Origin: a virus
Length of the DNA: 34,138 bases
IMG/VR virus record: IMGVR_UViG_3300036046_000382
Coordinates: 1-34,138 of that record
Direction: 5' to 3' (one strand)
Shown here: positions 2,352-31,201 of the stretch, one piece after another
Layout: the number at the start of each line of letters is the position of its first letter
Numbering within the stretch: the first letter of the stretch is position 1
The notes under the pieces: model-generated
The model's input: the letters and a program-made list of their open reading frames with translations, nothing else
Told to the model about the DNA's origin: nothing
The model's database searches: none
Translations under genes and position numbers: made by a program

Positions 2352-2625
2352 CGAAATCCTTGCCGAAATCGAGGGGTGCCATATCCGGCGAAAGCGGGTG
2401 CTGCTATTCCAGATGGCCGGGCGCTTGTTCACGCTCTGGGTTGTCACCTGGGGCGCCTACAACGCCAGCGCCGGGGATTGGCCTACAGCGTTGCTCATGT
2501 TCGTGCTGCTGGGTATCAACGTGGCTTCTGACAATTTCCAAACCAGCGCCGTCCGCAATATCGACAAGCAGTTAGCGCACCTGCACCAGCTAGGGCTGCA
2601 GGCGACCAGCAAGCCTCAGACCTGA
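2341..2625 (+). CDS. small two-helix membrane protein
   Basis: A 94-residue protein. I chose GTG 2341 because AGGAG lies about eight bases upstream; the open frame extends back to an ATG at 2311 that has no such site. Layout: a short acidic N-terminal helix, basic residues (HIRRKR), hydrophobic segments at about 24-42 (LLFQMAGRLFTLWVVTWGAY) and 49-65 (PTALLMFVLLGINVAS), then a cytoplasmic-type C-terminal helix. It is the last gene of the plus-strand cluster and its stop overlaps the stop of the converging minus-strand gene by 10 bases. The topology resembles the protein at 1755-2045, although the sequences do not align well by eye. Function unknown. Confidence 0.65.
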   Translation: MTPDEILAEIEGCHIRRKRVLLFQMAGRLFTLWVVTWGAYNASAGDWPTALLMFVLLGINVASDNFQTSAVRNIDKQLAHLHQLGLQATSKPQT

Positions 2626-2628
2626 GGC
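2613..2628. repeat. perfect 16-bp palindrome across converging stop codons
   Basis: GCCTCAG-AC-CTGAGGC, seven paired bases with a two-base centre, spans the overlapping stop codons of the two converging genes. There is no T-run on either side, so it is not a standard intrinsic terminator, though it could slow or block converging polymerases. No other terminator is visible between the two opposing transcription units. Confidence 0.5.
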
Positions 2629-3185
2629 AGCTCGGGCTCAGGCAGGCCCACCAGGCGGCCGGCCGCTTCCATGATGCCGGTCTGCTCCCCGTTGAGTTTG
2701 TAGTCCGGGGCCAGCAGCGCAGCGCTGTAGCCGTAGTCCCCGAAGCGCAGTGCCAGCGTGATGCAGGGCGTCACACCCTTGCCGGTATGGAAGTCCGCTT
2801 GAGCCTGCTCGGCCTCGGCCTGGTTCTTGACCCAGCGAGCCATGGTGTGACCCAGACTCACCGAGGCGAAGCCCACCAAGTCAGCGTCACGGCCCTCGCG
2901 CAGGACTTCGTGTAGGCCCAGCAGCAGGCGGGTGCCCTGGGTCAATGGCTCGCTCATCGCACGCTGCATCAGCCGCCCAAGCGCGTCAGGGTTGCTGAGC
3001 GCACGCGCATTCACATCCCGCGGCAGCAGCACCAGCTCATGCCTCTGAACGATACGCACCACGGTCATGTGTATGGGGTCGAACGGACCTTCGGCCGCAA
3101 ACGTGTCCTGGGCCAGCGTGCGGAGCTTGCGGAACAGGTCGGTGATGATGGCCTGCGCTTCGGCCGGCTGTTGATCGAGCTGCAT
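2616..3185 (-). CDS. hypothetical protein
   Basis: A 189-residue protein and the last gene of the late minus-strand block. Its ATG lies three bases after the stop of the gene at 3189-3863. The N-terminal part is helical (QQPAEAQAIITDLFRKLRTL) and the C-terminal part contains LALRFGDYGYSAALL. The same pattern, Ala-Leu-Arg-aromatic-Gly-x-x-Gly-Tyr followed by a hydrophobic strand, occurs in the upstream neighbour, so the two may be distantly related. There is no signal peptide, membrane helix or catalytic motif I can name. Its position downstream of all virion genes, behind a terminator, suggests accessory cargo rather than a core structural protein. Confidence 0.6.
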   Translation of the reverse strand: MQLDQQPAEAQAIITDLFRKLRTLAQDTFAAEGPFDPIHMTVVRIVQRHELVLLPRDVNARALSNPDALGRLMQRAMSEPLTQGTRLLLGLHEVLREGRDADLVGFASVSLGHTMARWVKNQAEAEQAQADFHTGKGVTPCITLALRFGDYGYSAALLAPDYKLNGEQTGIMEAAGRLVGLPEPELPQV

Positions 3186-3188
3186 GGG

Positions 3189-3863
3189 TCAGTGGATGTT
3201 TTGCACGATGGGGGAATCGGGATGGTTCACAAAGCTCCCGACCAGCGGACCCGTGTAGGTGCGGTCAAAGCTGAAGCGCTGTATCTCGTACTGGTCACCC
3301 CGCTTGACGGCAACCACCGTGTAACCGCGCGAGCCCCAGCGCAGCGCAAACATCACACCGTCATCTGTATCAATTGAAGGCCTCTGCACCGATGAATCGT
3401 AGTTGTGAACCCCCTCATCACCGGACTCCTCGCTGACCTCAGCAGCTTTGATGGGAACCAGCACCACGGTGGCCAACAGGGGCACACCCAGGGAGTGCCT
3501 GAAGTATTCTTCAGCCCCGCCGCCCGGCTGGAACATCGAGTCAATCGCATGGGCAAAGGCCAACTCGGCGCGCTTCCCCTTGGATAGCCCCCTGATGGAC
3601 TGGGGGCCATCCGACTCCATCACGCGAATGGCGATCCCTGCCAGGGTGCTGACCACTGCATCAGGGACGCTGCGCACCACAGCATCGACACCATCATCAC
3701 CCAGGTCTTTGGCGCCAACAGCTAGAACAACCGGATCAGTCGGCGCAGGCAGTTTCCCGCTCAACAGCGGCTCTGAAACCATGGTCATGACGCTGAGCCA
3801 AAACCGCTCAGTCCACTCGTCCTCAATGCCCGCAAGCAGCCTTTCAAACTTTCGCATCGTCAT
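3189..3863 (-). CDS. hypothetical protein
   Basis: A 224-residue protein. The open frame runs back to 3962, but the extra 33 codons read through a terminator hairpin (encoding RKGGGFFFIGG), so I place the start at the ATG at 3863, with GGTGG just upstream. The N-terminus is helical (MRKFERLLAGIEDEW), the middle is hydrophobic (LLATVVLVPIKA), and an acidic segment (EVSEESGDEG) precedes the C-terminal strands including FALRWGSRGYTVVAV, which resembles a stretch in the downstream gene. No known family is recognised. Because it begins about 12 bases after the T-run, it is expressed either by read-through or from a promoter I cannot place. Confidence 0.6.
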   Translation of the reverse strand: MTMRKFERLLAGIEDEWTERFWLSVMTMVSEPLLSGKLPAPTDPVVLAVGAKDLGDDGVDAVVRSVPDAVVSTLAGIAIRVMESDGPQSIRGLSKGKRAELAFAHAIDSMFQPGGGAEEYFRHSLGVPLLATVVLVPIKAAEVSEESGDEGVHNYDSSVQRPSIDTDDGVMFALRWGSRGYTVVAVKRGDQYEIQRFSFDRTYTGPLVGSFVNHPDSPIVQNIH

Positions 3864-3875
3864 AGTGCCACCAAT

Positions 3876-3910
3876 AAAAAAAAACCCCCCGCCCTTTCGG
3901 GCGAGGGGCG
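3876..3910 (-). terminator. intrinsic terminator after the giant ejection-protein gene
   Basis: Read on the minus strand, CCCCTCGCCC-GAAA-GGGCGGGGGG forms a 10-bp stem with one mismatch, followed by a run of nine T residues (complement of 3876-3884). It lies between the end of the 2203-residue gene and the two last genes of the block. Confidence 0.85.
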
Positions 3911-4044
3911 GACCTTCCGCAGCAAGCTCAGGGAGGAACGTGCTAGGGATGCACACGCTCACTGCGGAGACTCTTCAGTAACGTGCTGTCATGCTGTCGC
4001 ATCAGAGTGGCCGCACTGTAACACAGTGTTAGGCTCCATCCGTG
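3911..4044. other. noncoding gap with small repeats
   Basis: About 134 bases without a credible gene between the stop of the giant gene and the terminator. It contains an inverted repeat, CACTGT-AAC-ACAGTG (4014-4028), and two direct copies of AACGTGCT (3937-3944 and 3980-3987), 43 bases apart. These could be operator sites or chance. I see no convincing promoter and no copy of the 19-bp element found in other gaps. Confidence 0.4.
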
Positions 4045-7000
4045 TCACTCCGTTACCAGGGTTTTCGCCAGTGCCTCGGCTCGGTCATTGCGCTTGGCGT
4101 ACAGCTCCTTTAGTTTCTCGCGCTTCTCGGCCCCGTCAAGGCCCTTGTCCTCGCTTACCTTCTTGATCTGCTTGGCGATGGTGCTGAGCTGCTTGGTGGC
4201 CGCGGTGCTGGCCTTGTACTTGGCCAGCTTGTCACCGTCCTCGGCCATGATTTCCAGGGCCTTGTCCTTGTCGCCCGACGCGAGCGCCTGGCGATAGCTC
4301 TGCATGAGCTGGCCAATCTCGTTGGCCTTGTCGTACACCGCACCCACATAGCGGCTCTGGTCCGCGGGCAGCGTGTCAACAAAGCCCCCGGTCCAGCGCT
4401 TGACGGACCAGTCAGGGCGCTCGCCGCGGCCTCCCAGCGCGGTTGCGGGCGCATCCGTGATGCCCACCAGGAACGCGCCCAGGGTGCCGAAGTAGCCGCG
4501 AATCAGGTAGTCCACCTGCTGCGGGCTCATCTTGCCCTCGGAGCTGTTCGGACCCCATTGACCGCGCACCAGAGCCAGCGGAGTTGGCAGGCCCAAAGAG
4601 CCCAGGAACTTGGCCAGCTCGCTGGTGTTCTCGTTGTAGCGATCCTCGGGCCGCATGTTCTGCATGGCGCGAGTCTCGATAGGCGAGCCCTTGAAGCTGT
4701 CCTTGTTCGCGTACACATCGACCAGCGGCTTGAGGGCCTGCGGGGTCGGGTCGAATGCGAAGGTCTGAAACAGCATCGCGCTGATGCGGTCGGTGTAGCG
4801 GCGGCCGTCCATTTCGGGCTCGACCATCAGCTCCCAGGTCCGCTCGGCCAGCGTGCCCGCGGCGCCCAGCTCGAACGGCTTGGGCACGCGGAAGGCAGTG
4901 CCGCCGATCTTGAACCACCAGAAGCTGTCCCGGTCCCAGTCCTCGCGCTCCTTCCACTCGGGTTCGTCGCTGCCAAGCATATACAGCGCCATGCTGGCCA
5001 TGACCACCGCCGACACGGCCGCGGCCATGCGCTTGGGGTTCTCGACGCCACCGCGGCCCAGCTTGTAGAGGCCCTGGATGCGGGCATTCAGGAAGGGCAC
5101 GGTTTGCACCAGGAAGCGCACCAGCGGCATCTTGCCCTGCAGGCTGAAGTCCAGCAGGTCGCGCGCCGCAAACGCGGCCTCTTCCTTGCTGTAGCCGCGG
5201 GCGATCATCTGCTGATACAGCGCTGCGCGGTTCGCCTGCTCGCCCCGGTCGCCCAGTTCCTGATAGGCCTCCAGCACATCGCCACTCACCTGCAGCAGGC
5301 GTGCAAGCCCCTTCTTGTCCAGCATCACGCCGCCTGCTCGCCTGATGAGCTTCTGCGCGTGGCTCGCTTGGTCACCATCGTTGGCCGCACCGAAGCGCAT
5401 CAGCGCACCGCTGGCCAGCATTTCCGCATAGGTCTGGTTCATCGGCAGGAAGCTGGCAGGGTTCTTCATGCCCGGCGTGAGCGTGCGCCCCAGGTTCTTC
5501 AGCGCGCCCTTTACGTCCAGCGCCTCGGCACCATCGGCCAGGTTCTTGAACACGTTCGGGTGCAGCTCGGCCACGGCCACGGCCTGCATGCTGTCGCGGA
5601 TCAGGTTGCGGATTTTGAAGTCAGGCAACGTGGTCACACCCAGGGTCAGCCAGCGCTTCATGGTCGTCAAGCCCTTCATCACTGCGCTATCTGGCGGCAG
5701 ATAGTGCATTGCAGTCATGGCTTCGTGGATCGCCTCATCGTGGATCGCGTAGTAAGTCGCCTTGCCGTCCACCATGATCTTCACGGCACCCTCGGTGCCC
5801 TGGGGCACCTGCTCGGCAATGCCGGCCTCAAGCGCATCCTTGATCGTGGCCTCGGCTGCGCGGTTCTTGGCCGAGGCGCTGATGAGGTGCGACCAGTTGC
5901 GCAGCACGTTCTCCAGCAGGTTGTCGTTCAGCAGCTCGGTGCCACCCTTGAGCTGCTTCCAGGCGTACTGGTTCGTCAGCGCCTCGCTGAACTTCGACCC
6001 CTGCACGCCCTTTTCGACGATGCGATAGAACGGCACGTAGGGCATGCCCGCATACAGGTCATAGGCGGCCTGGTCGATCAAGCCAGAGTCACGCGTGACA
6101 GCCAGGATCGAATCATTGAACTCAATGAACCGAGCCAGCGCATCACCGTAGACCTGGGCGCGGTCGCGGCCGTCAGCCATCTTGCCCGTGGCCAGACTCT
6201 TCAAAGCCTCACGGGTCGCCTCGCTCATCAGGTTTTCCTTGCCGAGCTTGGCCAGCTCGTCGCCGCGCATGCCCACCACCCAGCGGAAGAAATCCTTGTC
6301 CTCGCCCTTGAGGTCGGCCAGCACGTTGGCAAAGCCGCCCGTCATATCCACGGTCGTGCTGCCACCCTCCAGGCGCAGGCGACCGTAGACCATCGCGGCC
6401 TCCAGCGCCCCATAGGCGCCAGCGGCCAGGCGGGCCAGGCGGTAGCCTCGGGGGCTGAACTTCTTGAGCGCGTGGAACTGGTCAACCACACCCGTGATGA
6501 AGCGGTCGCGGAAGCCCTGGCGCAGCTCGCGCGCACCGTCAATGAAGCGCTGCTTCTGGGTGCGGTTGTCGGGCTTGCCGAAAGCCTGCTCAATGCCGGC
6601 ACTCTGCTCAGGGGTGTAGCGGCGCGTACCGGGGGCGAGCTGTTCGGCGTGTTCGTCAGGGGTCAGCTCCACGGCCTTTGGGGCCATGGGGTCATCTGCT
6701 ACACTCCTACCCGGCTGCGCGCCGAACGTTTCGGACGTTGGCGGGACGGCCCCTTCGGGGGAAGCACCTGGCGCGGCGCGGGCCTTTCTATACATGGTCA
6801 CCAGGGCCAGCCGCTTGCGGCCCTGGCGTACCTCCTCCACCACGAACACATCCCCGTCAAGCTCGGTTTCGTAGGAAATCCGGGCCAGTCCAGAGGGGGA
6901 ATCTTCGACGCGCACCACCGCCCTAGCCCTGGTCGGGTCGGTCAGTTCAGGGAGCCGCTTCAAGTCCTCGACCGTGATTGGGGGCATTCCACGCAATTCC

Positions 7001-10000
7001 TCGCCGCCCTCACCATGGCGCCTGAGGATGTGGCGAATCGCCGCCTCATCAACCCCGTGGGCGTAGCCGCTCAAGTCAAGCCCGGTGGCTTCCTGCAGCA
7101 GCTCGGCCCGGGACTTGTCCAGCGGTCGATAGACAACAAATGCCTTGTTGCCATCCTTGCGCCCCTGCGCCTCGCGCACCAGGTCGGCAATACGCTCGCC
7201 CGCGGCAACATCGCTTGCGGCGCGCACCGGCCCCATCTGGCTGCGCTTGGTGTACTGGTTGCGGTCGCGCGGCTGCGCGGCAATCTCCTCGCTGAGCTGC
7301 AGCACGGCCGTGAGCGCGGTCTTGTCCTTGGTGCCCAGCAGGCCCGCAATGAAGTCCACGAACTTGGACCAGGCCGACTGCTTGCCGTACTTGATGCCGG
7401 CCAGCTTCGTCTGGAATCGCGGGTTACTCCATGCCTCGCTGACAAACTCATGAATGTCACTGAGGCCGTAGTCGCTGTGCCCCTTCAGCTCGCGCTTGAC
7501 GAACTTGAACAGCGCTTCCATCCGCGTCACGAACGGCTGTTGAGCCGCAGTCGGCGCCATCAGGGCCTGGTGCATGATGCCGTGCATGATTTCATGCAGG
7601 ATCACATGCTCATTTCCCTCCATCGAGCGAACGGGCGTGTTGTTCTTGCGGTCCATCCCTGGGCGCATGTGCAGCGTGTCATGCACAGGGTCATAGAACC
7701 CGCCCACGCGGTCAGGGTTCATGAACTGGCCACGGACCTTGTTGGAGCGCGGCCACTCGGCGATTTTCATTTCGCCGACCAGCTTGCGCGCCATCTGCGC
7801 ACCGCGGCGGATCGTCGGGCTATGTGCCTTCTCAAGGATGCTCAGCACCTTGTCCAGGTCACGCGCCTGCCAGGCCTTCATCAGCTCGGCATTGTTGTCC
7901 TGGGTGGCCAGTGCATCAGCAGTCTCGCGCTTGCCCAGCGGCTTGCGACCCTTCGGAGCCTCCTCGGTCCAGCCCGGATCGACGCCAGGCTCACGCGCCG
8001 GGCCAGTGTCGCCCCGGCCATCCGTGTTGGTGTCGGGCTGCTTGGCCTCAGCGTCCTTGCCAGCAGGCATCTTGCCCAGGTCGCCGAGCTTCTGCTTGTC
8101 CTGCCAGCTCTCGCCGATGCCGGCGCCGCGGTCGTTCATGCGGCCATCGGTTTCAGCATCGCCGCGGGGCTTGATGCGCGGGTCTTGCGCGCGGCTGAAG
8201 CCGGCAGCGCTGGTGACGTTCTGGTCTACCGTGTTCTGAGTGCGCCGCTCTGCGACCATGGCCCGCATCACATCCTGACGGGTCAGGCGGCCAGCGTCGA
8301 ACTCCTGCACGAACGCACGCGCAGCGGGCGTGTTCGTCTTGCGCATCGCGCTGACGTACAGGTCTACCTCATCCGTGCTGGGCGGGGCCTCGCGCTTGTT
8401 GCCCTGCAGCTCGGGGCTGTAGGGCGCGCTCTTGATGCGCTTGATCGCGTAGACACCGGGCTTGCCGTTCGGGTGCGGAACCACCGACAGCGTGTCGGGG
8501 TTGCTCTCGACGGGGCCGCGGGCCGGCGCAGGCATCTTGATGGGGCTGATGCCGATGGCCATGCGAAGCGGCTGTGCCGGATGCGGCACCAGGACCAGGC
8601 GCTTCGGATCGACGCCTGCCTCTGCCACGTTCTCGCGCGCCAGGGCCAGGGTCTTTTCGGCGTAGCGACCCGGGCGCAGCGGGGTCGCATCGTAAATCTC
8701 GGTTAGCTCAGCGGGCTGCGTAGGCAGCGAGCTGGTGCCCTTGACCCGCTCAGCCTTGATGATGGCGAGGCGCTGCTCGGCCTGCTCGCGCGTCATGCCG
8801 CGCAGCTCAACAAATTCGGAGGTGTCCTGGCGGCCGGGGCTGCTGGCCGTGATGGGCTGAGCGCGGTTCGGGCCGACACCTTCCAGCGGGGTGGCACCAT
8901 CGTTGCCGATGATCTTGAGGTTCGGCCTGTCCACGCCTTCAGGCACCGTGATGCCAGGCAGCAGCCGACCAGGCTGACGCACATCGGGCGCGTTGGTCGG
9001 CATCGAGCTGAGGCTGTCGGCCGCGGGGGCAAGGCCTGCAGCCTGGCGCTGCGAATCCAGGCCAGCACGGTCAGCCGCAGCCAGGCCGGTGAACTGCGCC
9101 GCAGTGGCGGCACGTTCCTGCGACAGGCGCAGTGCGGGGGTCATCAGGTCTTGCTCGGTGGCGCTGGTCGTGCGCCCCGGCAGGTCGGTCGCAAGCTGCT
9201 CGGCGACATTGGCATCGGCAACAGCGCGGGCCGTCTCATTGGCCTGGCGCATCGCGTGGTCCTGCAGCTCGACATGCAGGTCAACAGCTTCTTGCAGCTT
9301 CCCCAGGCGCGCTGCATCGGCGGCCTGGTAAGCCTCAGACTCAAGCTCTTCCGCAATCCGCTGAGAGATTCCCTGAGCCGTGAAGTCAGCGGCTGCGCTC
9401 GGGCGGTTGACCAGCTTCTCGGCCGCCGCAATGGTGTCCTCAAGCGAGGCGTCAGGGCTCATGCTGCGCTCAAGGTCAGCCTCGGCTTCAGCGCGCTGCT
9501 GGTCGGCCTGCTTGTCGGCCTCATCGGCCTGCGCGTTCAGCTTCTCCGAGGGCTTCGGGCGATGCACCGCACCGGAGAATCCGCCGATAGCACCGCCGCC
9601 GACAGCACCCAGGCCCGCCGAGTCAACGTACTCGCGCAGCGCATCCTCACCCGTGAGGTCTTTGCCCGCGCCATAGCGCTCGATGCCGGTCTGCACCGCT
9701 TCGGTCAGGCCCTCGGCCGTGGCACCCATCAGCGTGCCGGTTGTGGCGCGAGCTGCGCGACCACCAACACCAGGCAGCTTGACCTTACCCGTCACCGCGC
9801 CGAGCTGCAGCTTGTCCATCAGCGACTCGACGCCACCGGATGCCAGCGATGCGCCCCACACCCGCGCCAGGTCGCCGCCAGAAAGCTGCTCGCCATTGGC
9901 GGCGGCCTCCTCCTCAGCGCTCCCATAGATGCCGCCCGCGGTCTTGCCGGTGTTGAGGCCGACCAAGCCGGCCGTGCTGCCGATATCCTTGGCCACCGAT

Positions 10001-10656
10001 TTGACGGCCATCGCGCGCATCTGTTCCGGCGCCACATCCTTGACACCCTGGGCCGCGAGCTGTTCGGCAATCTCTGCTGCGCGCTTGGCAACGGCCTTCT
10101 CGACCATGCCGGTTGCGGCTTGCTTGACCGCCCCCTTGGCCACAACCCCCGTGACCGCGCCCGTAGCAGTGCCGGGGCCGGGGGCCATGGCAGAGCCCGC
10201 GATGCCGCCGATGACTGCGCTGGCCGCAGCCTCGCCAAGCTGGCCCAGGCCATACCCGAGGCCGAACTGTGCGAAGTCCACCAGCGCGCCGAGGTCTCCC
10301 TCTTGCGCCCGCGCCCATGCGTTCGTGAGGGAGTCGGTGTCGCGCTGCAGTGGCGCGAGCTTACCCATGCCCTCTTGGTAGCCGCGTAGGCCCCAGTTCT
10401 TGAAGCCGGTAGCGATGCCGTCTTCTCCAACGAACTTTTCGGCGGTCGCGCCGACCAGCCCCACAGCACCCTTCAGAAGCGCGGGGGTTTGGCCGAACGC
10501 AATCTTTGCGCCGCGCGTGAAGTCGGGCGGGTCGTATCCGAGTTCCTTCTCGATTTGCCCCCGGCTGAGGCCCTGGTACTTGGTGGCCTGCAGACCCGTG
10601 AGGATTTCCTCGTCGGTGTAGTCAGGGTACTTCGCGCGAAGCTGCTCAAACTTCAA
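4045..10656 (-). CDS. giant polyvalent ejection protein (metallopeptidase + PBECR-like nuclease + LPD38-like)
   Basis: A 2203-residue protein with a TTG start at 10656, supported by GGAG eight bases upstream and by the preceding stop at 10677. Regions seen: a short helical N-terminus (KFEQLRAKYPDYTDEEIL); Gly/Ala-rich hydrophobic stretches at about 132-180 and 347-364, fit for membrane insertion; a coiled coil near 370-400; and a Zn-peptidase-like domain, about 923-1110, with HEIMHGIMH (H1021, E1022, H1025) and candidate third ligands E1070/E1074 in HEFVSEAW. A Barnase/EndoU/RelE-like (PBECR) nuclease domain lies at about 1170-1292, with IRHILRRHG at 1207-1215 and a terminal LALVTMYRKA strand. 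An LPD38-type C-terminal region starts with PDFKIRNLIRDSMQAV at 1678, has a membrane-like helix near 1874-1894, and ends in a charged helix. By analogy with T7 gp16 and N4 ejected proteins it is probably packaged in the virion and injected with DNA. Confidence 0.85.
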   Translation of the reverse strand: MKFEQLRAKYPDYTDEEILTGLQATKYQGLSRGQIEKELGYDPPDFTRGAKIAFGQTPALLKGAVGLVGATAEKFVGEDGIATGFKNWGLRGYQEGMGKLAPLQRDTDSLTNAWARAQEGDLGALVDFAQFGLGYGLGQLGEAAASAVIGGIAGSAMAPGPGTATGAVTGVVAKGAVKQAATGMVEKAVAKRAAEIAEQLAAQGVKDVAPEQMRAMAVKSVAKDIGSTAGLVGLNTGKTAGGIYGSAEEEAAANGEQLSGGDLARVWGASLASGGVESLMDKLQLGAVTGKVKLPGVGGRAARATTGTLMGATAEGLTEAVQTGIERYGAGKDLTGEDALREYVDSAGLGAVGGGAIGGFSGAVHRPKPSEKLNAQADEADKQADQQRAEAEADLERSMSPDASLEDTIAAAEKLVNRPSAAADFTAQGISQRIAEELESEAYQAADAARLGKLQEAVDLHVELQDHAMRQANETARAVADANVAEQLATDLPGRTTSATEQDLMTPALRLSQERAATAAQFTGLAAADRAGLDSQRQAAGLAPAADSLSSMPTNAPDVRQPGRLLPGITVPEGVDRPNLKIIGNDGATPLEGVGPNRAQPITASSPGRQDTSEFVELRGMTREQAEQRLAIIKAERVKGTSSLPTQPAELTEIYDATPLRPGRYAEKTLALARENVAEAGVDPKRLVLVPHPAQPLRMAIGISPIKMPAPARGPVESNPDTLSVVPHPNGKPGVYAIKRIKSAPYSPELQGNKREAPPSTDEVDLYVSAMRKTNTPAARAFVQEFDAGRLTRQDVMRAMVAERRTQNTVDQNVTSAAGFSRAQDPRIKPRGDAETDGRMNDRGAGIGESWQDKQKLGDLGKMPAGKDAEAKQPDTNTDGRGDTGPAREPGVDPGWTEEAPKGRKPLGKRETADALATQDNNAELMKAWQARDLDKVLSILEKAHSPTIRRGAQMARKLVGEMKIAEWPRSNKVRGQFMNPDRVGGFYDPVHDTLHMRPGMDRKNNTPVRSMEGNEHVILHEIMHGIMHQALMAPTAAQQPFVTRMEALFKFVKRELKGHSDYGLSDIHEFVSEAWSNPRFQTKLAGIKYGKQSAWSKFVDFIAGLLGTKDKTALTAVLQLSEEIAAQPRDRNQYTKRSQMGPVRAASDVAAGERIADLVREAQGRKDGNKAFVVYRPLDKSRAELLQEATGLDLSGYAHGVDEAAIRHILRRHGEGGEELRGMPPITVEDLKRLPELTDPTRARAVVRVEDSPSGLARISYETELDGDVFVVEEVRQGRKRLALVTMYRKARAAPGASPEGAVPPTSETFGAQPGRSVADDPMAPKAVELTPDEHAEQLAPGTRRYTPEQSAGIEQAFGKPDNRTQKQRFIDGARELRQGFRDRFITGVVDQFHALKKFSPRGYRLARLAAGAYGALEAAMVYGRLRLEGGSTTVDMTGGFANVLADLKGEDKDFFRWVVGMRGDELAKLGKENLMSEATREALKSLATGKMADGRDRAQVYGDALARFIEFNDSILAVTRDSGLIDQAAYDLYAGMPYVPFYRIVEKGVQGSKFSEALTNQYAWKQLKGGTELLNDNLLENVLRNWSHLISASAKNRAAEATIKDALEAGIAEQVPQGTEGAVKIMVDGKATYYAIHDEAIHEAMTAMHYLPPDSAVMKGLTTMKRWLTLGVTTLPDFKIRNLIRDSMQAVAVAELHPNVFKNLADGAEALDVKGALKNLGRTLTPGMKNPASFLPMNQTYAEMLASGALMRFGAANDGDQASHAQKLIRRAGGVMLDKKGLARLLQVSGDVLEAYQELGDRGEQANRAALYQQMIARGYSKEEAAFAARDLLDFSLQGKMPLVRFLVQTVPFLNARIQGLYKLGRGGVENPKRMAAAVSAVVMASMALYMLGSDEPEWKEREDWDRDSFWWFKIGGTAFRVPKPFELGAAGTLAERTWELMVEPEMDGRRYTDRISAMLFQTFAFDPTPQALKPLVDVYANKDSFKGSPIETRAMQNMRPEDRYNENTSELAKFLGSLGLPTPLALVRGQWGPNSSEGKMSPQQVDYLIRGYFGTLGAFLVGITDAPATALGGRGERPDWSVKRWTGGFVDTLPADQSRYVGAVYDKANEIGQLMQSYRQALASGDKDKALEIMAEDGDKLAKYKASTAATKQLSTIAKQIKKVSEDKGLDGAEKREKLKELYAKRNDRAEALAKTLVTE

Positions 10657-10676: not shown

Positions 10677-11762
10677 TTAGAAGCCGCGGCGCGGGTCGCC
10701 CGCTGCGCCAGGTCGGCCGCTCTCTTGGATGGCCTTGTTTCGGGCGCGGCGCTCTTGCTCAGCAATGGCCTCAGGGACGCCCGCCTTAGCCTTCGCAGCG
10801 AGGTCCGCATCGCCCACGTTGCGCCAGTTGATCGCGGTCGCCCCGCCATTCAACCGACTCAGCTCCTCGACGGTTCGCCCGCCACCACCTGACTTGGCAC
10901 CGCCAGCGGCGGCTTGACCGTCCCCCTTAGCCTGGCGCGCAGCGTCCATCGCTGCCTTGAGCGGGTCAGCGCTATCGCCACCTTCAGCCGCCTTGATACC
11001 GAAGCGCGCGGCCACGCTCTTAGTCGTGGCGCGGATCAGGCCGATGGAGCGCTGCGCGTCCTCCTTGGCCTCTTCCGTCGCATTCGGATCGCTCAGCGTG
11101 GCGCGTGCGCGCGAAGCTGCGTTCTCCAGGTCGGCAATGACCTTGAGCGCCTGCGGGCGGTCCATCGAGCTACCGCTGAGGTCGCTGATGCGCTGCTGAA
11201 TACGTTCGCGCTCTTCCGGGTCTTTCGCGTCAGCGAGCTGCCGGCGAAGCAGCGATGCCTCGCCGAACTCCTTCAGCTTGGCCGCTGCGAGCTGTTCGCT
11301 CGGCCCGAACACATGCGATGCCTGCGCGATGGTCTGCAGCGCGCGCTTGTACTTCGGATCGCTGGCCAGAGCGATCTTTGCCTCGCCCTCGGCCTTGGCG
11401 CGAGCGCCGACCGCAAGACCCTCGTTCTCGGCGCGCACCTTGCCGACAGCGCGCTCGTCCTCGACCGCGATATCGCGCTTGGTGCCGGCCTGATCCTTCA
11501 GGCGCTGGGTGCCAAGCTCGGTTTCCATTTCGTAGGACTTGCGTGCCGCCTGGCGCGTGGCCTCGCCACCCTCGCCGGTCGTGCCCCACAGCACGCCATC
11601 GCGGCGCAGCTCCTCGGCCGCGCGCATCTTGGTCGCTTCCAGCTCGGCCTGGTAGTCCATCATTTCCATGCGGTTGCGCTTGTCCAGCTCGCCCTGGCCC
11701 CACTGGGCCACACCGCGACCAGCGCCGCCAAGGGTGCCAGCGATCAGGCCGCCCCAGCTCAT
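10677..11762 (-). CDS. putative internal virion protein (coiled coil)
   Basis: A 361-residue protein with its ATG in an ATGA overlap with the preceding gene's stop. A Gly-rich N-terminus (MSWGGLIAGTLGGAGRGVAQ) is followed by a long Ala/Glu/Lys/Arg helical region (about 25-260), a Gly/Ser/Ala linker (ADGQAAAGGAKSGGGG-like, about 280-300), and a basic C-terminus. There is no enzyme motif. Its place immediately upstream of the giant ejection protein, in the same strand and unit, matches the position of internal core proteins in podoviruses (the gp15/gp16 neighbourhood of T7-type phages). Function is inferred from context and composition. Confidence 0.6.
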   Translation of the reverse strand: MSWGGLIAGTLGGAGRGVAQWGQGELDKRNRMEMMDYQAELEATKMRAAEELRRDGVLWGTTGEGGEATRQAARKSYEMETELGTQRLKDQAGTKRDIAVEDERAVGKVRAENEGLAVGARAKAEGEAKIALASDPKYKRALQTIAQASHVFGPSEQLAAAKLKEFGEASLLRRQLADAKDPEERERIQQRISDLSGSSMDRPQALKVIADLENAASRARATLSDPNATEEAKEDAQRSIGLIRATTKSVAARFGIKAAEGGDSADPLKAAMDAARQAKGDGQAAAGGAKSGGGGRTVEELSRLNGGATAINWRNVGDADLAAKAKAGVPEAIAEQERRARNKAIQESGRPGAAGDPRRGF

Positions 11763-12355
11763 GCCGGCACCTCTTCCTCACCCTCGACCGGCGCGGCCTC
11801 CTCTTCAGCAGGCGGGGCCTCGGCGGGCGGTTCTTCCTCGGTCGGTGCAGGCGGTTCTGCACCAGCCTGCTCATCCTTCACCAGAGGCGTGACCTCCTGA
11901 GCCTTCTTGCCGCGCGCTTCGATGTTGGCAATGATCTTGTTGCTGTCGATCTTGGCTTGACCCAGCACTGCGTCGATGAACACGCCCACCGCGGTGCCAA
12001 AGTCCGCATCACTCAGTTCCTGGCGGCCCTTCAGCAGGTAGTCCCGCGCATGCGCCAGCAGCACGATGCCGCAAGGGATGATGAGCTGCGGGGGCAGCGA
12101 GTTGCGAGACTCCTGCAGCAGCAGACCCATCACACCAGCGATGCTCAGGCCGAGCTTCTGCGGCAGCGGCCCGTTACCCTGCATCGCTTGCTGTCGCAGC
12201 TTCTGCGTGCTGGGGTCGAACATGACTTTCATGCCGGCCACCACGATGCGCTGGAACTGGTTGCGCATCTTGGGCGGCACGGCCATGCGGGACTGCAGAG
12301 CCCGCGGGCTCAGGTTGTCGGTGCTGGGCTTCTTGGAGCTGATGATTCCGGCCAT
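11759..12355 (-). CDS. putative internal/structural virion protein with acidic tail
   Basis: A 198-residue protein starting MAGIISSKKPSTDNLSPRAL. The folded part (about 20-150) is helical with a hydrophobic segment (GLSIAGVMGLLLQE) and PPQLIIPCGIVLLAHA. From about 160 onwards the chain is almost entirely Glu, Pro and Ala (PTEEEPPAEAPPAEEEAAP), a disordered acidic tail. The ATGA overlap with the next gene indicates coupled translation. I do not recognise a named family. It lies among the internal-protein genes and may be a minor virion or chaperone-like component. Confidence 0.55.
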   Translation of the reverse strand: MAGIISSKKPSTDNLSPRALQSRMAVPPKMRNQFQRIVVAGMKVMFDPSTQKLRQQAMQGNGPLPQKLGLSIAGVMGLLLQESRNSLPPQLIIPCGIVLLAHARDYLLKGRQELSDADFGTAVGVFIDAVLGQAKIDSNKIIANIEARGKKAQEVTPLVKDEQAGAEPPAPTEEEPPAEAPPAEEEAAPVEGEEEVPA

Positions 12356-12361
12356 GGGTGC

Positions 12362-13324
12362 TTAGCCTTTGTTGGGTGCTTGGAAGGTGGGCATCTTGAG
12401 TGCCAAGATGCTCTTGTTGAGGCGGTCGCGCTGGGCTTCCAGCTCGGCCGTGCGGGCCGCAATCGCGTCCTTCTGGGCCTGCTGCTGCATGTAGCCCTGG
12501 GCGCCACCGGACAGAGCCTGGCCTGCGACCATGGCAGCGCCTGGGTTCTGGTTCATGAAGCCCGCGACAGGGGCGCCGTACTTGGCCCACAGGCCCTGCG
12601 GAGCTGCCGGGTTCTTTGCCGCGGACAGGGCTGCGTTCTGAGCGTCCAGCACACCAGGCCCAGCCTGGTTACCGTACTTGCCAAACGCGGTGTCCATCGC
12701 GCCACCGTCAACCGTTGGCACGCTCGGCGCAGCGACATTGGGGGCCGCAATCGACGGCTGAGCTGCAGCCAGGTCACTCACAGCGCCGACTTGCGCGGCC
12801 TCGGTGATTGGGCCCGCGGAGCTGACGGCCGAATCAGCCGACCCGGCCAGCCCGCTGCCTAGCTGCGATTCAGCAGCCATCAGGGGCTCAGCCATGCCAC
12901 CGAGGTTGCTGCTGATGATGCCCTCGCTCGCCGAAGCGGCAGCACCCGCGGTGTCACCCACAGCACCCGCAACACTCGCGGCCGTGTCAGCCCCTGGTGC
13001 CGCGTACTTGGCGAACTGCGCAGCGTCCGAGCCCGCCGCAGAGCCAGCAGCATCCCAGGCGCTGCTGGCCTCGGCCGCGCTGCTCGACGCCAGGTCGCTG
13101 GACAGCTTTTCCCACGCACCGCTGGCCAGGCCGCCGATACCGCCAGCCAGGCTGACCAGGCCGCCGATCTTGGCGAGCTTTTGATTGCCGGTGACCGTGC
13201 CGATGATCGTCATGGCACCGCCAGCGACCATCAGGCCGCCGACAAGCGCACTGCCCGCAGCAACAGCCGAGACACCTGCAGAGACAGATAGGACCGCCCC
13301 AATGAGCGGAATAACAGGTGGCAT
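12362..13324 (-). CDS. Ala/Gly/Ser-rich putative internal virion protein
   Basis: A 320-residue protein. Residues 1-75 are strongly hydrophobic and Gly/Ala-rich (VIPLIGAVLSVSAGVSAVAA, then LVGGLMVAGGAMTIIG and IGGLVSLAGGIGGLASG), which is compatible with membrane insertion. Residues 80-230 are a low-complexity Ala/Ser/Gly region, and the C-terminal part ends in a coiled coil (KDAIAARTAELEAQRDRLNK). The start overlaps the preceding stop (TAATG). Such proteins are common among the ejected internal proteins of podoviruses. The exact role, for example formation of a trans-envelope channel, is inference. Confidence 0.55.
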   Translation of the reverse strand: MPPVIPLIGAVLSVSAGVSAVAAGSALVGGLMVAGGAMTIIGTVTGNQKLAKIGGLVSLAGGIGGLASGAWEKLSSDLASSSAAEASSAWDAAGSAAGSDAAQFAKYAAPGADTAASVAGAVGDTAGAAASASEGIISSNLGGMAEPLMAAESQLGSGLAGSADSAVSSAGPITEAAQVGAVSDLAAAQPSIAAPNVAAPSVPTVDGGAMDTAFGKYGNQAGPGVLDAQNAALSAAKNPAAPQGLWAKYGAPVAGFMNQNPGAAMVAGQALSGGAQGYMQQQAQKDAIAARTAELEAQRDRLNKSILALKMPTFQAPNKG

Positions 13325-13704
13325 TACACCTTCTCCTTGCCGAAGGGCAGCGCCGACAGCATCCAGTTTTGGTATTGGCCATCGAACCAGGTTTCTTCAA
13401 AGCCCATGCGGGTCAAGAACCGTTCCGAGGCCGCGTTACGCAGGTCACTCTTCGTTGTGAGGAACCCATATCGTTCAAACATCGGGGCCAGGAAAGACCT
13501 GACCCTGCCCCGATGAATAAGCCGCTTACGCCATTGCGGCGCAAGGGCAAAGTGAATCTCGGTGCCCTTGAGGATGGCCACCGCGGCCAGCTCGCCTGCA
13601 ACATGGTGGGTAAAGACTTCCCACCCATTCACCTCGCTGGGATCGAGCTTGAGCCGGGCCCAGTCAAGGAATCTTGTCAGGGCGATTTGATGGTCTGTGC
13701 TCAA
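13324..13704 (-). CDS. T7 gp13-like protein with GNAT-type fold
   Basis: A 126-residue protein. The C-terminal motif SERFLTRMGFEETWFDGQYQ, followed by a hydrophobic strand, resembles both the last helix-strand of GNAT acetyltransferases and the end of T7 internal virion protein gp13 (RFLK-x-I-G-A ... DGQFQLF). The length is close to that of gp13. No clear acetyl-CoA loop is visible, so catalysis is doubtful. It lies between genes of internal/virion proteins, as gp13 does near gp14-gp16. Both ends overlap neighbours (ATGA and TAATG). In T7 the homologue is needed for assembly of the ejection apparatus; a similar role here is inferred. Confidence 0.6.
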   Translation of the reverse strand: MSTDHQIALTRFLDWARLKLDPSEVNGWEVFTHHVAGELAAVAILKGTEIHFALAPQWRKRLIHRGRVRSFLAPMFERYGFLTTKSDLRNAASERFLTRMGFEETWFDGQYQNWMLSALPFGKEKV

Positions 13705-15275
13705 TGCTGCATGACTTCAAAATTGGAGTCCCCGCCACCGCCTCCCCAGCCGCCCCAGTCACTGACGGTCCCGCTGTCATAGCCAGGGTTGTCCCAGTAG
13801 CCGCCATCGCCCCAGTCGCCGCCATCGCCCCAATCGCCCCAATCGCCACCCCAGTCCTCGACGGTGCCGCTGTCTGGACCAGGCTGCTCCCAGTAGTCCC
13901 CGCCCCAGTCGCCACCGCCGTCCGAATCAATCGGCACATCGGTTTCATCAGGGCCGGGCTTGTCCCAGTAGTCCCCGCCCCAGTCGCCACCGCCGTCCGA
14001 ATCAATCGGCACATCGGTTTCATCAGGGCCGGGCTTGTCCCAGTAGTCCTCTTCGCCATCGGCGCCGGGTTGAGGAACATCGGTCGGGTTACCGTCGTCC
14101 GCTCCCGGCTTAGGAACATCGGTCGGGTTAGGGTAGTACGGGTCAGTCGGGTTGCCGCCGCCCGTATCACCACCGCCATCACCACCGCCCCCACCGCCCG
14201 TGTCAGTGCCGGGGGTCGCCAGAAGCCGGCCGAGCTTGAGCCCCGACAGACTCTCCAGCATCCCCATGTTGTTGTTGAAGTTGGCCGTGAGGTCGTCAAT
14301 AGCCTTCTTCTTGGCTGCGTCTAGCAGGTCGGGGTTCGTCATCACAGCCTGCACCGCCTGCAGGTACTGCTGATAGGCGTTCTGCATCGACTCTTGGGTC
14401 TGCAGACCGACCTTGTACTGAGCCTCGATTTCCGACAGGTTGGCCTTGATCGCCCCATCGAGCTGGGTCAGCGTGTGTTTGTTGGCCGCATCAGCGTTCT
14501 GCAGCGCGGTCTTGAGCTGCGCGTCATACGCGGCCAGGCTGGATCGCAGCGATGCGTCTTGGTTAGAAAGCCGCGCCGCGTTCTGGTTCTGCGCGAGCTG
14601 CTGCAGGCGCGCGGCCTCGCTGGAGCTGTCCAGGCGCGAGGCCGCGTTTGCAGCCTCCATGTTCGCCATGGTCATGTTGTTCTTCTGACCAGCAGTGAAC
14701 TGGGCCGCCGCGTTCGTCTGGCCCGCGTTGAACATGCTGGCCTGGTTCTTCGCGTTCGCGTTGAACTGCGCACTGTTGGCGTGCGTGCTGGCGTCCTGCA
14801 GGCCGATAGGCGTAGCTGCGTCCATCACAGCGCCATGGGCCGCACCCACAGCAAGGCTGCTGTTCAGCAGGCCGCGCGATGCGCTCTCGGCATTGGCCTT
14901 GGCCTCGGCGCGCTGCATGAGTGAGCTATTGCGCGCAATGATGCCGTCGATCTGGTTGGCCGCAAGCTGCTTGTCCTCCACGGTCCAATCGGTCGTGCCC
15001 GCATGAACCGCGGTGTAGCCCTCGGCCGTGCCGGTCTGGTACTTCGTCGGGTCGGCCTTGGGGTTCTTGCTCGGGTCATACACACCGAGGTCGATCTGCG
15101 GCGCGTTCGGTGCCTGCAGGCCCGAGGTGTTCACCTCGGTGGGCTTGTAGCCGCTGTAGTCGGCCTGAGGGCGATCCTTGCTGCCGTTGTAGAGGCCAGA
15201 GCCCGTGGACAGACCCGTACCGCTCGCGCTGGTGGCGCTGGTGGCCTGGGTGACGTTGTTGTCAGTGCTTGCCAT
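13701..15275 (-). CDS. virion protein with Gly/Asp/Trp-rich repeat tail
   Basis: A 524-residue protein. Residues 1-90 are Ser/Thr/Gly-rich. Residues about 95-345 are a long helical, Ala/Asn/Gln-rich region (SLMQRAEAKANAESASRGLL onward), probably a coiled coil. From residue 354 the chain becomes low-complexity Gly/Asp/Pro/Trp/Tyr. Two identical 25-residue units containing DYWDKPGPDETDVPIDSDGG lie at about 411-461, followed by two degenerate copies (DYWEQPGPDSGTVEDWGG and GYWDNPGYDSGTVSDWGG). The repeat tail is encoded by a perfect 75-bp duplication. Location next to the internal-protein genes suggests a virion component. Aromatic/Gly/Asp repeats suggest adhesion or calcium binding, but no function can be assigned. 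Confidence 0.6.
   Translation of the reverse strand: MASTDNNVTQATSATSASGTGLSTGSGLYNGSKDRPQADYSGYKPTEVNTSGLQAPNAPQIDLGVYDPSKNPKADPTKYQTGTAEGYTAVHAGTTDWTVEDKQLAANQIDGIIARNSSLMQRAEAKANAESASRGLLNSSLAVGAAHGAVMDAATPIGLQDASTHANSAQFNANAKNQASMFNAGQTNAAAQFTAGQKNNMTMANMEAANAASRLDSSSEAARLQQLAQNQNAARLSNQDASLRSSLAAYDAQLKTALQNADAANKHTLTQLDGAIKANLSEIEAQYKVGLQTQESMQNAYQQYLQAVQAVMTNPDLLDAAKKKAIDDLTANFNNNMGMLESLSGLKLGRLLATPGTDTGGGGGGDGGGDTGGGNPTDPYYPNPTDVPKPGADDGNPTDVPQPGADGEEDYWDKPGPDETDVPIDSDGGGDWGGDYWDKPGPDETDVPIDSDGGGDWGGDYWEQPGPDSGTVEDWGGDWGDWGDGGDWGDGGYWDNPGYDSGTVSDWGGWGGGGGDSNFEVMQH
13891..14040. repeat. perfect tandem duplication of 75 bp
   Basis: Bases 13891-13965 and 13966-14040 are identical, and a third copy begins at 14041 but diverges after about nine bases. 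The unit is in frame (25 codons) inside the Gly/Asp/Trp-rich tail of the protein at 13701-15275. Perfect identity, including third codon positions, implies recent expansion by slippage or recombination. Copy number could vary between phage isolates. Confidence 0.95.
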
Positions 15276-30867: not shown

Positions 30868-30943
30868 TGGTTGCGATGGCTGGACTTGAACCAGCGACCT
30901 GACGCTTATGAGGCGTCCTCTCTACCAACTGAGCTACACCGCA
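30868..30943 (-). tRNA. tRNA with anticodon CAT (Met or Ile2)
   Basis: A 76-base cloverleaf with encoded CCA. Acceptor TGCGGTG/CATCGCA, anticodon stem GACGC/GCGTC with loop CTCATAA, T arm GCTGG-TTCAAGT-CCAGC. G10 faces A25 in the D stem, a mismatch. The T arm equals that of E. coli tRNA-Ile2, so the CAT anticodon may be modified to read AUA rather than AUG. It is clearly paralogous to the tRNA at 31033. Confidence 0.85.
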
Positions 30944-30949
30944 ATTGAC

Positions 30950-31025
30950 TGGCAAGGGGTGCAGGACTCGAACCTGCGACCAGCGGAATCAAAATCCGCT
31001 GCTCTACCAACTGAGCTAACCCCCA
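30950..31025 (-). tRNA. tRNA-Gln (TTG)
   Basis: A 76-base cloverleaf with encoded CCA. Anticodon stem GCGGA/TCCGC with loop TTTTGAT gives anticodon TTG. T arm GCAGG-TTCGAGT-CCTGC. The acceptor is TGGGGGT against ACCCCTT, leaving T1 opposite T72 and G2 opposite T71. Base 73 is G, as in E. coli tRNA-Gln, whose synthetase also opens a weak 1-72 pair. Confidence 0.85.
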
Positions 31026-31032
31026 TCTGAAT

Positions 31033-31108
31033 TGGTTGTGACGGCTGGACTTGAACCAGCGACCGCACGCTTATCGGGCGTGTGCTCTACCAACTGAGCT
31101 ACATCACA
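31033..31108 (-). tRNA. tRNA-Ile (GAT) with C at position 33
   Basis: A 76-base cloverleaf with encoded CCA. Acceptor TGTGATG/CGTCACA, D arm GCTC/GAGC, anticodon stem CACGC/GCGTG with loop CCGATAA, T arm GCTGG-TTCAAGT-CCAGC. The anticodon is GAT. The base before it, normally U33, is C. The body and 3' flank are nearly the same as the CAT tRNA at 30868. Confidence 0.8.
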
Positions 31109-31113
31109 TCGAC

Positions 31114-31201
31114 TGGTGGATGCGGATGGATTTGAACCACCGCGGCCCCTAGGGGCACCCGCTTTACAGGCGGGGGCAATCAACCGCTCTGCCACGCATC
31201 C
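31114..31201 (-). tRNA. tRNA-Tyr (GTA)
   Basis: An 88-base class II cloverleaf with encoded CCA. Acceptor GGATGCG/CGCATCC, anticodon stem CCCGC/GCGGG with loop CTGTAAA, a long variable arm (CCCC-TA-GGGG), and T arm GGTGG-TTCAAAT-CCATC. Confidence 0.9.

Follow-up and report, generated by a model that had tools for sequence, protein, structure and literature searches.

The closest described systems to the protein reported here are of several kinds. According to Iyer et al. (2017; PMC5512222), the polyvalent proteins of phages combine metallopeptidase (MPTase), PBECR and LPD domains, are encoded among virion genes and are predicted to be packaged and injected; self-processing is discussed there, and LPD38 is described as confined to phages. 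The virion RNA polymerase gp50 of phage N4 is a huge ejected protein whose C1 domain carries the HExxH of zincins and whose gene adjoins small ejection genes (PMC12633501). Smaller ejection proteins are gp48 of PhiM1 (8vb2; PMC11440229) and the internal virion proteins of the Autographiviridae. In the Burkholderia phage JC1 and in Bcep22, DarB-like giants (gp69 and gp75) with LPD38 near the C-terminus are encoded at the end of a podovirus structural block and carry lytic transglycosylase, helicase/methylase-like and LPD3 cargo; JC1 gp69, with LPD38 at residues 4195-4401, was detected with 51 unique peptides in CsCl-purified virions (PMC9144972). Finally, polymorphic toxins join a constant delivery part to a variable toxin, and BECR-type folds occur among them as well as among RelE/BrnT and CDI RNase toxins. 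Proteins injected by a phage can take effect ahead of any phage gene expression; tests of their effector domains seem to be few, and no assayed PBECR domain was found in the literature searched.

Genes recognised in the window analysed here, the whole of a 34,138-nucleotide IMG/VR record (IMGVR_UViG_3300036046_000382), are those of an SU10-type portal with its adaptor, of a head protein and of a terminase; an endolysin and a holin are also encoded. With this gene set, the source virus is likely to be a short-tailed phage. The giant gene under study lies in the structural block, with portal, adaptor, head protein and terminase, in a gene order resembling gp50-gp51-gp52 of N4:

4048..10656, minus strand: giant polyvalent protein gene (2203 aa, TTG start)
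10677..13324, minus strand: three small genes (361, 198 and 320 aa) directly upstream of the giant gene, encoding probable companion ejection proteins

As the earlier note had stated, one 2203-residue chain is encoded by a single open frame at 4045-10656. Its TTG start codon (10656-10654) is preceded, 8 nt upstream, by the Shine-Dalgarno sequence GGAG (10668-10665). Homologues of the 198-aa and 320-aa genes and of the genes at 13324-15275 occur in loci with LPD38 giants; these homologues and the N4-like order suggest that the three small genes are probable companion ejection proteins. For the whole giant protein, a peptide-pattern search revealed no close relatives in viral or genome contigs, and a single-sequence query gave no match among solved structures. 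The Pfam scan of the protein recognised PBECR3 and LPD38 and no further credible domain. Membrane-active Gly/Ala stretches had also been proposed: residues 101-400 indeed contain 34-40% Gly+Ala, but just two segments of the protein (140-159 and 1876-1898) passed the hydropathy threshold, which lends membrane activity little support.

Three parts of the chain could be assigned, of which the zincin and the C-terminal module are considered here:

4048..6504, minus strand: conserved C-terminal module, residues 1385-2203, proposed constant part of the chassis (viral-contig matches; 41-sequence alignment)
4399..4962, minus strand: LPD38 domain, residues 1899-2086 (Pfam E 3.6e-39)
7159..7839, minus strand: zincin-like metallopeptidase (MPTase) domain, residues about 940-1166 (supported by an AlphaFold2 model and by profile similarity to solved ejection proteins)
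7582..7596, minus strand: HExxH zinc motif, residues 1021-1025
7447..7449, minus strand: Glu1070, predicted third zinc ligand

The LPD38-like C-terminus expected from the first inspection scored 135.3 bits against the LPD38 model (PF18857; Pfam cut-off 27). The surrounding module matched at least 591 candidate stretches of viral contigs and is also present in the named phages CF418P1 and ARM81mr and in Vibrio phages, where the upstream parts of the proteins differ; according to Pfam, the giants of CF418P1 and ARM81mr carry other cargo there. A profile of the LPD38 module gave nothing credible among solved structures, and its comparison with N4 C2 by hhalign (probability 0.5) gave no detectable homology.

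The motif HEIMHGIMH, read earlier as a zinc-peptidase signature, begins at residue 1021. Among the matches listed, HExxH precedes the C-terminal module in 53 of 61 LPD38 relatives and lies inside it in none, and shuffling of the upstream parts left a mean of 0.9 proteins with the motif, so the occurrence is not due to chance. The downstream HEFVSEAW, from residue 1069, holds Glu1070, which together with H1021, E1022 and H1025 belongs to the five columns that are invariant in an alignment of 14 relatives. When a zincin profile was compared with solved structures, an 'internal virion protein' (9sfn_G) was matched with E 2.5e-34 and the tetrameric ejection protein gp48 of PhiM1 (8vb2_A) with E 2e-5, followed by a weaker match to a gp10 (E 0.017); Autographiviridae internal virion proteins also match the domain by sequence. 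In an AlphaFold2 model of moderate confidence (pLDDT 68.8), HExxH and Glu1070 are both located in helices. No significant Foldseek match was obtained for this model; upon re-alignment, domain C1 of N4 gp50 (2124-2363) was best (Z 8.6) and PhiM1 gp48 second (Z 8.5), with lower scores for anthrax lethal factor (about 6) and the PPEP peptidases (about 5). We regard residues about 940-1166 as a real zincin domain with predicted zinc binding and proteolysis, its fold being read from the moderate-confidence model with the help of the sequence-profile matches.

A zincin is therefore a recurrent part of ejection proteins, shared by sequence and fold with PhiM1 gp48, by sequence with the Autographiviridae proteins, and in the case of N4 gp50 as domain C1. 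The match of the giant protein to phrog_2206 covers only residues 778-1132, which comprise the zincin part together with the preceding stretch. Unlike N4 gp50, the giant protein showed no Pfam match to an RNA polymerase domain, and the Pfam scan likewise gave no match to a lytic transglycosylase domain of the T7 gp16 type (the structure models cover other parts than residues 1-900). No Pfam domain was found in the one Autographiviridae internal virion protein scanned. Since zincins are present in ejection proteins without recognised cargo, the domain probably serves an ejection or (self-)processing machinery rather than as a weapon. The match to solved ejectosome proteins connects the zincin found in polyvalent proteins with the ejection machinery.

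Between the zincin and the C-terminal module lies the domain that had been described as Barnase/EndoU/RelE-type:

6781..7101, minus strand: PBECR3 (Barnase/EndoU/ColicinE5-D/RelE-like) predicted RNase domain, residues 1186-1292 (Pfam; AlphaFold2 model)
7015..7032, minus strand: His1209 to His1214, segment bounded by the two invariant histidines in the PBECR3 helix (22-sequence alignment)
6796..6798, minus strand: Thr1287, conserved Thr/Ser position in the last strand of PBECR3 (alignment)

With 35.9 bits (E 7.8e-9; Pfam cut-off 30) against PF18812, this is a divergent member of PBECR3. Searched alone against viral contigs, it found nothing by exact peptides, and relatives were obtained once an alignment was used as the query. 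His1209, His1214 and Glu1275 do not vary among 22 PBECR3 sequences, most of which have a Thr or Ser in the last strand. The domain of the giant protein keeps these catalytic residues intact, with the active-site His in the N-terminal helix and the Thr/Ser in a late strand, as is typical of the family. Its AlphaFold2 model was good (pLDDT 87.1); RelE-type toxins led the Foldseek matches (E 0.015-0.04), and re-alignment gave Z 7.7 for BrnT, 5-7 for RelE-family proteins and about 5 for CDI toxins. Although these scores are modest, nearly all leading matches are RNase toxins. The domain thus bears a modest resemblance to RelE/BrnT RNase toxins, and RNase activity is predicted from fold and residues. 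In relatives, PBECR3 also accompanies domains of the DarA, ddrB-ParB and pyrophosphatase types, and weaker relatives occur within MuF proteins. Profile and structure searches together have now yielded both a metallopeptidase and a nuclease-type fold, and with zincin, PBECR3 and LPD38 as unrelated functional domains of one long chain, encoded among the structural genes of a likely short-tailed phage, the giant protein belongs to the phage polyvalent proteins described by Iyer et al. (2017; PMC5512222), as had been proposed.

We then compared the stretch that holds PBECR3 across LPD38 proteins, measuring slot length as the number of residues separating the last HExxH and the module start:

6505..7596, minus strand: putative cargo slot, from HExxH to the start of the C-terminal module, 364 aa, holding PBECR3 here (relatives fall into empty, single and double classes)

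The frequencies obtained are not population estimates, because the sample consisted of the 80 best among the matches listed. Among these matches, 23 proteins had slots of 164-240 aa, none had 241-347 aa, and the remainder began at 348-434 aa and reached greater lengths. Again among the matches listed, no ADP-ribosyltransferase (ART) or PBECR3 was found in slots of the short class, one protein of which (L020) has PBECR3 elsewhere in its chain. Longer slots contained PBECR3 (the giant protein, L014 and L016), ART (for example L054, L058 and L070), LPD3 (L015 and L021) or MuF_C (L023), with about 60-110 aa often left between the end of the payload and the module; in several, no domain was recognised. 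Close relatives differed in this respect: L014 carries PBECR3 and L021 LPD3, whereas L011, L018 and L012 have no domain, and in a further close pair L051 carries ART and L057 none. In both groups the sequences on either side of the slot are closely similar, and the compared flanking DNA is 87-95% identical, whereas the slot itself fails to align. Comparison of these sequences argues for a discrete cargo slot between zincin and C-terminal module. Since the flanks are alike and the contents differ, the payload would be dispensable for the chassis and subject to fast turnover, and the predicted RNase looks like such a dispensable, exchangeable payload. In the linker, taken as the 110 aa before the LPD38 module, the tripeptide FSR was present in 18 of 63 relatives among the matches listed (L009-L088), compared with a background elsewhere of about 0.04 per 110 aa. 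We take FSR as no more than a hint of a cleavage or boundary site, because some of the carriers are close kin and the motif is missing from the linker of the giant protein.

Our preferred reading, to which we assign a probability of roughly 0.6, is that the giant is a polyvalent ejection protein in which a chassis of zincin and LPD38 carries an exchangeable PBECR3 payload acting on RNA, in a phage known from its contig alone. The whole chain would be packaged inside the head and leave it together with the DNA, as suggested by the occurrence of JC1 gp69 in virions and by the homology of one domain to ejectosome proteins. Zincin and C-terminal LPD38 module would form the constant working chassis, with PBECR3 as a swappable payload in the fixed slot between them. 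In the entered cell, PBECR3 would cut RNA during the first minutes of infection, candidate targets being host or competitor mRNA, tRNA or the RNA of a host defence, and it might act while still attached or after the zincin has cut the linker. A broader version is doubtful in our view: LPD38 proteins in general would be injection chassis with one payload slot, among whose close members RNase, ART, LPD3 and MuF_C cassettes are swapped, and whose zincin would release the payload inside the host by cutting the linkers. If this were true, virions would have in the LPD38 chassis their own counterpart of polymorphic toxins, one that lacks immunity genes. From these toxins the giant protein differs in its internal rather than C-terminal toxin-type domain, in its proposed delivery by the virion and in that no immunity or antitoxin gene is recognised. 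The absence of a separate immunity gene, remarked upon earlier, holds as far as tested, with no candidate for PBECR3 recognised among the flanking genes.

The delivered peptidase of the earlier note, a host-directed protease effector entering beside the RNase, appears improbable, even if its zincin fold was recovered. The catalytic residues are invariant, there is a weak fold likeness to anthrax lethal factor and PPEP peptidases, and a protease effector is one possibility listed by Iyer et al. (PMC5512222). The same domain is, however, common to the ejection proteins of N4, PhiM1 and the Autographiviridae and to LPD38 chassis with empty slots, and for this reason a general role in ejection or processing fits better. 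Only slightly less improbable is that PBECR3 lacks catalytic activity and functions in binding nucleic acid or in packing of the protein in the head. Some BECR domains are thought to be inactive, among them the predicted inactive PBECR of the MuF protein of phage Mu (PMC5512222). The copy in the giant protein, however, has its His, His, Glu and Thr intact, and the slot is empty in many relatives, which indicates that PBECR3 is not needed for packing.

Possible, though still the lesser option, is that the RNase is directed at competing phages or plasmids (superinfection exclusion) or at an RNA-based host defence instead of host translation. Cargo turnover among closely similar phages suggests a changing opponent, and CRISPR RNA or host RNA-based restriction was proposed as a target by Iyer et al. 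(PMC5512222); this explanation departs from the ejected chassis with an exchangeable RNase in its target only. Regarding that preferred reading, the domain families and their predicted packaging and injection were known already (Iyer et al., 2017; PMC5512222). Neither the slot anatomy and the natural empty and filled pairs nor the correspondence between the zincin and solved ejectosome structures was found in the accessible part of that article (PMC5512222); the zincin match and the slot with its pairs are new. The pairs L011 versus L014 and L057 versus L051 offer clean comparisons of the effect of a payload.

The window contains four tRNA genes (Met, Gln, Ile and Tyr) in a row at 30868-31201, between the portal and terminase genes. 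That they replace tRNAs cut by the RNase was considered but not supported: tRNA genes occurred in 2 of 18 PBECR3 loci and in 1 of 42 other LPD38 loci, a weak test in which any tRNA was counted and available flanks only were used. Defence-system models gave no match. The gene at 1-705 on the plus strand, opposite to the structural block, encodes a methyltransferase-like EIGAGNGVLA motif and has no PHROG match. Directly downstream of the giant gene, two genes at 2616-3185 and 3189-3962 belong to no recognised family and have no homologue in the loci of the relatives; these minus-strand genes (2616-3962) are similar near the C-termini of their products (ALRWGSRGYTVVAV / ALRFGDYGYSAALL) and are possibly paralogues. 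A 1382-aa open frame at 4558-8706 on the plus strand, antisense to the giant gene, is probably a by-product of codon use at 64-68% G+C. The protein encoded at 13701-15275 on the minus strand ends in C-terminal direct repeats rich in Gly, Asp and Trp (GGGDWGGDYWDKPGPDETDVPIDSD).
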